Position numbers and translations under genes: made by a program
From: Actinomycetes bacterium
Lineage (GTDB): Bacteria; Actinomycetota; Acidimicrobiia; Acidimicrobiales; Palsa-688
Direction: 5' to 3'
DNA: 64,000 nucleotides
Assembly: GCA_021799445.1 (NCBI GenBank)
Contig: JAJZAM010000001.1
Coordinates: 30,634 to 94,633, forward strand
Notes under the pieces: model-generated
The model's input: only the letters and a program-made list of their open reading frames with translations
Told to the model about the DNA's origin: nothing
Database searches by the model: none
Shown: piece by piece, positions 12,262-14,337 of the stretch
Numbering within the stretch: position 1 is the stretch's first letter
Layout: each line of letters starts with the position of its first letter

Positions 12262-12415
12262 CCGCCAGGCCCTCCCACAGATCCGGGCTTTCGACGCTCC
12301 GAACCGGCTCGACCCGGCGCCCCCCTACGTGTTGCGCAGGGCGAGCCTGTGGATGGGGCCGCACTTTGGTGGATACAGGTGCAACAGTTCGTGCTCGTAG
12401 GGCGTCTGTATTGAT

Positions 12416-12874
12416 GTGAGAGACCTGGCGACACAGGACGCGGTTCTGTACCGGGCCTATTACAGCGAGTTGTTGAAGACGGCTTTCTGCTTGACCGGGT
12501 CGAGGGAGACGGCCGAGGACATGGTTCAAGACGTCTTCGTGCGCTGCTCGGGGCGTCTGGAGGGGATGGAAGACCCCGCCTTTTATCTAAGGCGAGCGGT
12601 GGTGAACGCTACCCGCTCTCTGTTCCGTCGCCGCTTGGTCGCGCAGAGGTGGGCTACTACGGTGTCCGCGTGGGACGAGATGCCGGACGAGCTCGTCGAA
12701 CTACGGGATGTGCTCATGCGGCTGCCAGTCCGTCAGCGCAGCGTGGTCGTGTTGCGCTACGTCGTCGGCCTAGACGACGACGAGATCGCCGCGACGCTTG
12801 AATGCTCCCGCTCGACCGTGCGCAGTTCGGCCCGCAGGGGCCTTGGACGTCTAAGAAAGGAGCTGACACCTTGA
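12416..12874 (+). CDS. ECF (extracytoplasmic function) sigma factor
   Basis: Short sigma-70 of 152 residues with region 2 (YYSELLKTAFCLTGSRETAEDMVQDVFVRC) and region 4 (LPVRQRSVVVLRYVVGLDDDEIAATL, then RSTVRSSARRGLGRLRKEL), close to the SigE/SACE group of actinobacterial ECFs. GTG start with TATTGAT immediately upstream. The stop overlaps the TTG start of the following membrane kelch protein by 4 bp, the position usually held by an anti-sigma factor. Confidence 0.9.
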   Translation: MRDLATQDAVLYRAYYSELLKTAFCLTGSRETAEDMVQDVFVRCSGRLEGMEDPAFYLRRAVVNATRSLFRRRLVAQRWATTVSAWDEMPDELVELRDVLMRLPVRQRSVVVLRYVVGLDDDEIAATLECSRSTVRSSARRGLGRLRKELTP

Positions 12875-14337
12875 TATCGGAAGAAGAGGTAGCCAAGCGT
12901 ATGGTCAGATTGGCCGAACACGCGCTGGTCGAACACGCGCTGGCCGGGCCAACTGCAGGGGGCCGCCTCGTCGAGAGCCGGCCTAGACGTCGCCCGGGGA
13001 GGGTCCTGGTGCCACTGGCGGCAGTCGCCGCCTTGGCGTTAGTGCTCGCAGTAGCAGCAGCACACATATACCGGCCGGGGGGATCAACGAGTGTCAGCAT
13101 GTCTTCCAGGCTTCAGCAAGGCGTGTTCAGCGCCCTGCCCGGCGCGCCGATACCGCCGTTAGGCTACTCGGCTTCGGCTTGGACGGGATCCGAGTGGCTG
13201 ATATGGGGCGGTGTCGACGGTCCAGTCGGTCCAAAGGAAACCACTCCCGACGTGGGTGCCGCCTACCGACCCTCCACTTCGACTTGGACTTCGCTGCCCC
13301 CGGCCCCCATATCAGGGCGTCACAGCGCCGTGTCGGTGTGGACTGGCTCGGAGTGGATCATCGCCGGCGGCGCCGGCTCAAACGGGGCCGCGCTTACTAG
13401 CGCCGCCAGTTTTGACCCTAGCCTAGACCGATGGTCGGTGCTGCCCCCAATGCCAGACGCTCCGGGGCCAAATGCCGCCGCAGTTTGGACCGGCAAAGAG
13501 ATGATCGTCGTGACCGGCTACTCGCCGGGGCCAGGTGTTCCCACCGGCGGGAGCGGTGCAGCGGAAGCGTACAATCCCGCTACACGACGCTGGACGCTGC
13601 TGCCTACACCGCCCGGCAACCTCATCTTTGGACAAGTGCACCTGGCCTGGTCGGGATCGAAGCTGTACGTTCTGCGCTCCCCGGCGGGCGTGTACCTGTC
13701 AGTGTCATTTGCGGCGAACCCCCCGGGTAAAACAATTGGCTCACTGCCGATGGGACCGATACCCAACCCGGTGGTAGCGGTCTTCGATCCATCTACCGAC
13801 ACGTGGGCGACGCTGACTATACCCACAACCATCCGAGGTTATCCTGTCTTGGCGGCCTACGACGGCAGACTGCTCGTCGTCGCCGGCCCGGGAGGGGGAA
13901 GTCTTCTGCAGGTGAACGACAGACAGGTGCTCATATCGGCTCCGAAGCCGTACCGGCAAACAGAGAGCTACTCCTATGACCCCGCCAGCGGGGCTTGGGA
14001 GCCGCTGGCAGGGTCGGTCCTAACCGGAACCGATTTGAAACCCGGCGAAGCTTACGACTACGGCGGCGGACAGGCGGTGTCGACCGGGACTGTCTTATAC
14101 TTCTGGTCGGGTGCCGGATATGGTTCCGCTTTTGACGCCGCAACTGACAGCTGGACCGTCCTACCAGCCGGATTGGACAATCAGCCCGACGAGTCGGTGA
14201 TCGGCAGCGTCGTGGCCTGGACGGGCAAGGACCTCTTGGCGTGGGGCGGCCAAAAGCTAGACCCATCGCCTTCGGGGGAGAATCCTGTCGTGAACGGGAC
14301 TCCCTTCGGCGGAGCCTCCTATCGCCCCGAAAACTGA
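12871..14337 (+). CDS. membrane-anchored kelch-type beta-propeller protein, putative sigma-factor partner
   Basis: Residues 1-45 are cytosolic and basic, followed by one membrane helix (VLVPLAAVAALALVLAVAAA, about 47-66) and a large outside domain. That domain has repeated kelch-like blades, recognisable as AWTGSEWLIWGG, VWTGSEWIIAGG, VWTGKEMIVVTG, AWSGSKLYVL, AYDGRLLVVAG and AWTGKDLLAWGG, compatible with a six- or seven-bladed propeller. The start is TTG 12871, in frame, eight bases after AAAGGAG and overlapping the ECF stop; an upstream ATG lies inside the ECF gene. No HxxxCxxC zinc anti-sigma motif is seen, so an anti-sigma role rests on context and topology only. Confidence 0.78.
   Translation: MISEEEVAKRMVRLAEHALVEHALAGPTAGGRLVESRPRRRPGRVLVPLAAVAALALVLAVAAAHIYRPGGSTSVSMSSRLQQGVFSALPGAPIPPLGYSASAWTGSEWLIWGGVDGPVGPKETTPDVGAAYRPSTSTWTSLPPAPISGRHSAVSVWTGSEWIIAGGAGSNGAALTSAASFDPSLDRWSVLPPMPDAPGPNAAAVWTGKEMIVVTGYSPGPGVPTGGSGAAEAYNPATRRWTLLPTPPGNLIFGQVHLAWSGSKLYVLRSPAGVYLSVSFAANPPGKTIGSLPMGPIPNPVVAVFDPSTDTWATLTIPTTIRGYPVLAAYDGRLLVVAGPGGGSLLQVNDRQVLISAPKPYRQTESYSYDPASGAWEPLAGSVLTGTDLKPGEAYDYGGGQAVSTGTVLYFWSGAGYGSAFDAATDSWTVLPAGLDNQPDESVIGSVVAWTGKDLLAWGGQKLDPSPSGENPVVNGTPFGGASYRPEN

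Follow-up and report, generated by a model that had tools for sequence, protein, structure and literature searches.

A probable ECF σ factor/membrane anti-σ factor pair with a kelch propeller head, and the family of short inside tails to which it points

Introduction

ECF σ factors share a set of hallmarks, namely a promoter with AAC and CGT elements, a two-domain architecture with a linker of under 50 residues, a co-transcribed anti-σ factor and autoregulation (PMC8103513). In the window analyzed here, a stretch of 64,000 nucleotides from an Acidimicrobiales genome, an ECF σ factor gene overlaps a gene encoding a membrane-anchored protein with a predicted kelch propeller outside the cell. The locus raises the question of whether the kelch protein is a sensor that restrains the σ factor or simply one of its target genes, and the preliminary description of this DNA had proposed either a new class of sensor or a target. 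Our literature search, outside whose scope lay the ECF reclassification (10.1093/nar/gkaa1229), found no paper joining an ECF σ factor, an anti-σ factor and a kelch protein.

Results

Architecture of the σ factor/kelch unit

The features of the unit are as follows, in positions of the window.

12380..12406, + strand: putative ECF-type operon promoter, an enriched motif with a −35 element TGCAAC (12380-12385), 16 bases and GCGTC (12402-12406)
12416..12874, + strand: ECF σ factor gene, 152 aa; GTG start 9 bases past the −10 element, possibly leaderless
12856..12862, + strand: RBS-like AAAGGAG for the partner gene, within the σ gene and 8 bases before the TTG; identical in the second genome of the genus
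12871..14337, + strand: gene of the membrane-anchored kelch protein, 488 aa; TTG start, 4-base overlap with the σ stop codon (TTGA)
12871..13002, + strand: inside tail, residues 1-44, made of the helix EEEVAKRMVRLAEHAL and a basic stretch; proposed σ-binding part
13003..13068, + strand: single membrane helix, residues ~45-66, from hydropathy and positive-inside charge; helix 46-67 in the structural model
13120..14328, + strand: outside kelch β-propeller, residues ~84-486, with seven blade motifs, from Pfam, phmmer and the model

Pfam searches placed Sigma70_r2 at residues 11-73 (4.7e-7) and Sigma70_r4_2 at residues 94-146 (5e-13) of the σ protein, which has no domains besides regions 2 and 4; these are joined by a linker of fewer than 50 residues, as in ECF σ factors. 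The best named subfamily was the SigE family (TIGR02983, SigE-fam_strep), with a score of 117.4 bits that falls below the curated cut-off of 141.55. The two-gene unit is preceded by an acyl-CoA ligase gene and followed, on the opposite strand, by a sulfate-reduction gene (named from its sequence, with no family search); neither neighbor is an obvious part of the unit. In the second genome of the genus (G001), the σ and kelch genes are both intact, with 96% protein identity, zero gaps and an identical overlap.

A longer open reading frame starting at ATG 12802 was considered for the partner gene and rejected; this codon lies inside the σ gene and, because the partners of relatives begin at the −4 overlap, TTG 12871 was taken as the true start. 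Since six lysines or arginines fall within the 15 residues before the membrane helix and only one within the 15 residues after it, the N-terminus of the partner is predicted to be inside the cell. The protein contains no cysteine, so its inside tail is devoid of a zinc motif. In the predicted structure, which is of low confidence, the tail was modelled with one inside helix at residues 4-24.

The outside part scored well above the Pfam cut-offs for kelch repeats (Kelch_1, 1.1e-12, 47.7 bits against 20.1; Kelch_4, 41 against 21.6), and phmmer comparison with solved kelch domains gave matches down to 4.6e-20. WTG-like blade motifs were located at residues 104, 157, 206, 260, 329 (YDG), ~397 (STG) and 450, and Y/F-x-P...W..L motifs at residues 132, 181, 234, 305, 369 and 421. 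The predicted structure showed β strands throughout and matched kelch structures with a TMt of ~0.55, at a mean pLDDT of 59, that is, with low confidence; in this model, the N-terminal strand 84-89 could close the last blade. The pair of an ECF σ factor and a membrane-anchored kelch protein claimed in the preliminary description is thus real, given the ECF domains, the overlap, the membrane helix and the Kelch_1 match, and the inside part of about 45 residues lacking a zinc motif agrees with the 44 residues delimited here. The kelch-like character that it proposed also stands, whereas its "six or so" WTG-x-E blades become seven motifs.

The pairing is conserved among relatives of the σ factor

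We searched 298 genomes of the order, 395 of the class and further named genomes for relatives of the σ factor, and read the gene that followed each relative. In 199 of 212 unique pairs, the next gene encoded a partner whose N-terminal membrane helix was preceded by a tail of 25-100 residues (median 50), and the exact 4-base overlap was present in 163 of the 212, counts that are to be read with the caveat that the partner-picking script favored membrane proteins near the overlap and missed true partners at two loci (L164 and L156). A second membrane helix was absent from 198 of the 199 tail partners, and the HxxxCxxC zinc motif was not found in any of the 199 tails. The same arrangement recurred in 79 of 85 further loci taken from across the phylum, where overlaps of 4, 8, 11 or 1 bases dominated. 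Judging from these loci, the σ-tail pairing is a conserved feature of the phylum rather than a peculiarity of the window. The anti-σ-like position and topology recognized beforehand are borne out by the conserved overlap pairing and by the charge pattern of a single-pass protein with its N-terminus inside.

No gene for a zinc anti-σ factor was found adjoining the window ECF gene. The window ECF differs in this respect from its siblings in the same genome, because two other ECF genes (L002 and L003, on contigs C224 and C4) are followed by genes for classical zinc-motif proteins (HLETCPKC and HVARCLRC). A rare arrangement was seen in Acidimicrobiales HKST-UBA09 (L203, 3989-6526), where the σ and tail genes lie in-frame, 12 bases apart and with no overlap.

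A putative ECF-type promoter precedes the operon

Bipartite words were counted de novo and blind in the regions preceding 196 σ relatives, and GCAAC-N17-CGTC was the top enriched motif, with 28 of 196 loci compared to 0.17 in dinucleotide shuffles; the broader form AAC-N16/17-CGTC was present in 96 of 196 loci, compared to 5.9 in shuffles. Among the phylum-wide loci added later, the motif preceded 21 of 79. The promoter of the window can equivalently be written as GCAAC-N17-CGTC at 12381-12406, 9 bases before the σ start. AAC −35 and CGT −10 elements are those of autoregulated ECF σ factors (PMC8103513), and the window operon carries such a putative site in front of its own σ gene. The ~60 bases before the σ start are ~93% identical in G001, compared to 79% for the intergenic part further upstream. 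The commonest spacing between the motif and the start codon was 8 bases (29 of the 73 loci with a close form of the motif), which suggests leaderless messages; leaderless ECF operons may be common among these relatives. A genome-wide search found no further promoter sites above chance, the strict pattern giving 3 hits compared to 6 for the reversed pattern, and the pattern combined with a start codon gave 10 hits compared to 5, none of them convincing besides the operon itself.

The promoter also bears on the direction in which the partner might act. The kelch protein could be a positive regulator, whose tail stabilizes or delivers the σ factor, as FecR-type proteins do for FecI-type σ factors, and whose kelch head signals action. 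Autoregulation and strict co-translation suit either sign, the genetic signature would be identical, and inhibition and activation are not separable by sequence alone. However, FecI-like ECF σ factors have been described as an exception to autoregulation (PMC8103513), whereas an ECF-type promoter precedes the window operon; moreover, most membrane partners co-transcribed with ECF σ factors are anti-σ factors (PMC8999054, PMC8103513). We consider a positive regulator unlikely and retain an anti-σ factor as the preferred reading of the partner.

The inside tails form a family

Alignment of the tails yielded the consensus LE-[DE]-R-L-R-x-A-L-x-x-x-A-D-x-V-x-P ... L/W-x-x-I ... R-R-R, situated before the membrane helix. 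Being short, basic and alanine-rich, such a tail might resemble its relatives by chance or composition and do nothing more than target secreted actinobacterial proteins to the membrane as a generic leader; the moderate score of the window tail (see below) would suit this explanation. Against it, the tail motif collapses upon shuffling, a simple form of it being present in 74 tails compared to 0.86 after shuffling. Furthermore, when a tail profile was trained without the test loci and compared with a background of ~2,490 other open reading frames from the same loci, 51 of 75 partners reached at least 12 bits, compared to 3 of 2,490 in the background. All three turned out to be ECF partners themselves, two that the script had overlooked and one that follows another ECF gene with the same overlap. 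A generic leader is highly improbable in the light of these results.

On a profile trained without it, the window tail scored 9.5 bits. Because ~0.5% of the 2,490 other open reading frames score as high, its membership in the tail family is likely, not certain. The tail profile matched none of the solved anti-σ factors, the only hits being unrelated chains with E values of at least 0.29. Only through the profile was a second ECF/short-tail membrane pair with a 4-base overlap (L173, minus strand, ~2388) picked from the background open reading frames, in a locus that already contained one such pair.

Covariation between σ factor and tail looked strong in 193 pairs (L93/L14, G118/A8 and R97/R10); in 79 held-out pairs, it was no better than in locally re-paired controls, and the membrane-helix control for covariation was weak, as this stretch varies little in residue class. 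The σ factor and tail of L203, modelled as one chain through the stop codon, gave two tail helices with a pTM of 0.57, no confident placement and no contacts. The σ domains of this model were nearest to σ factors solved with RsiW, NepR and CnrY, a comparison made at low confidence of placement and with no σ-only control.

The heads turn over while the tail is kept

Pfam matches among 94 aligned partners revealed a variety of heads: Gmad2 (9), kelch (6), RCC1 (4), YCF48/BNR (3), WD40-like PD40 (3), the FtsX extracellular domain (3), the SecDF P1 head (3), redoxin-like (1) and glycine-betaine-binding (1). TolB-like and unknown types were also found among the partner heads. A redoxin/AhpC-TSA-like domain ends a tail-family partner at L101:2643-3995 (minus strand) and matches with an E value of ~1e-5, just under the Pfam cut-off, which suggests a redox-sensing or redox-active head. 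The partner that matches the OpuAC/ProX glycine betaine binding family (1.6e-21; adjacency to a σ gene not re-checked) would carry a ligand-binding head.

Heads were detectably related in only 2% of pairs at 50-55% σ identity and in about half of those at 70% identity or above, some heads in this comparison being shortened by the fetched length. Kelch heads occurred in eight unique surveyed pairs, including that of the window, which together with G001 and a more distant family member (G003) makes ten genomes. On the σ tree, the kelch label must have changed four times or more along branches with good support, a count that may be up to one too high because G001 was unlabelled. The nearest outside relatives of the σ factor (L205 and L206) have small, unrelated heads.

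These results bear on whether the kelch protein is a mere target or effector of the σ factor, co-transcribed and exerting no regulation. As a member of the operon, it would be induced together with the σ factor, and kelch proteins may have enzymatic or binding functions. An effector, however, would be expected to conserve its head, whereas what all partners have in common lies inside the cell, in the tail, and not in the outside domain, and related heads are as rare as stated above among moderately diverged σ factors. A target with no regulatory role is quite unlikely on these grounds. Thus, of the two possibilities first entertained for the locus, the overlap pairing, the tail family and the promoter favor an anti-σ-like sensor, and the target-only possibility has little in its favor.

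Discussion

A co-translated partner that spans the membrane once with its N-terminus inside, an ECF-type promoter, a common inside tail and variable heads together point to a sensor that restrains the σ factor. The unit is quite probably an autoregulated pair of an ECF σ factor and a membrane anti-σ factor, the latter having a kelch head and a minimal tail that resembles class II. At the level of sequence, the genes, their overlap, the topology, the conserved pairing, the tail, the promoter motif and the turnover of heads all stand; the steps of the mechanism may be pictured as follows. The σ factor and its partner would be co-transcribed from the TGCAAC-N16-GCGTC promoter, probably read by the σ factor itself. 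The partner would span the membrane with its N-terminus on the inner side, where its 44-residue tail, in which a basic stretch is predicted to follow an amphipathic helix (some relatives have two helices here), would hold the σ factor in the unstressed cell, as short class II anti-σ domains do. Upon sensing of a ligand, polymer or protein by the outside propeller, the tail would let go, or the partner would be cut by regulated proteolysis, and the freed σ factor would transcribe its targets, its own operon first. Release by proteolysis would have a plausible parallel in RsdA, the anti-σ factor of SigD in Mycobacteriales, which is degraded by way of MarP, Rip1 and ClpXP (PMC11175481). The genome encodes a site-2 protease, which is uninformative because all 14 of 14 control genomes have one as well.

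Among the known systems, one precedent is CnrY, the class II anti-σ factor of CnrH, whose short, zinc-free membrane anti-σ domain wraps the σ factor with two helices (PMC7406223). In this class, to which NepR also belongs, the helices enclose σ2 and σ4. The window tail is likewise short, zinc-free and inside, and at 44 residues without cysteine it falls within the class II range of fewer than ~50 residues and no zinc. It differs from CnrY in its motif, its host phylum and its kelch head, and the tail profile has no sequence match to solved anti-σ factors. RsdA resembles the partner as an actinobacterial single-pass membrane anti-σ factor; no kelch head has been reported for it, however, and the window protein did not match the Pfam model of the RsdA σD-binding region up to E=1. 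The NCBIfam model CU044_5270, which in several relatives gives weak N-terminal matches touching the tail and the membrane helix, left the window partner unmatched up to E=1. ECF57 σ factors also couple an ECF to a propeller through WD40-like C-terminal extensions (PMC8999054), but these repeats lie within the σ polypeptide, whereas the window propeller belongs to a separate membrane partner and faces outside. With the class I anti-σ factors (RseA, RsiW, ChrR and RskA), the unit shares the operon logic and, for the membrane-bound ones, the topology. By contrast, the window tail is too short for this class (44 residues compared to at least 50 in four helices), has a single predicted inside helix and lacks HxxxCxxC; and whereas the members of one ECF group typically keep the domains associated with class I (PMC7406223), the heads surveyed here turn over among close σ relatives.

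The kelch head recurs in the ten genomes and the σ-tail pairing is phylum-wide; the absence of conservation that the preliminary description named as a refutation was thus not seen. What emerged is not, however, a new class restricted to kelch proteins: many other heads are borne by the same kind of tail, and CnrY is a precedent for a zinc-free anti-σ domain of 45 residues. What is new here is not so much the kelch pair itself as the tail family that it exposed. With a common tail beneath many outside domains in hundreds of relatives, the family has the look of a plug-in design for sensors that is in wide use. The tail may perhaps, with somewhat less than an even chance, represent a further, undescribed minimal anti-σ class, a membrane-proximal adaptor of 40-60 residues universal to Actinomycetota, on which heads are swapped while the σ factor and promoter type are kept.

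Published surveys, which leave out domains of fewer than 50 residues, have counted anti-σ factors mainly by class I domains (PMC7406223); for about two in three ECF σ factors, no class I partner lies nearby. The short tail would offer a simple way of assigning membrane partners to many actinobacterial ECF σ factors, on the basis of the motif, the gene overlap and the promoter signature. Should the tails prove inhibitory, actinobacteria would offer a ready-made set of natural sensor heads that share one adaptor and could easily be tested and reused.
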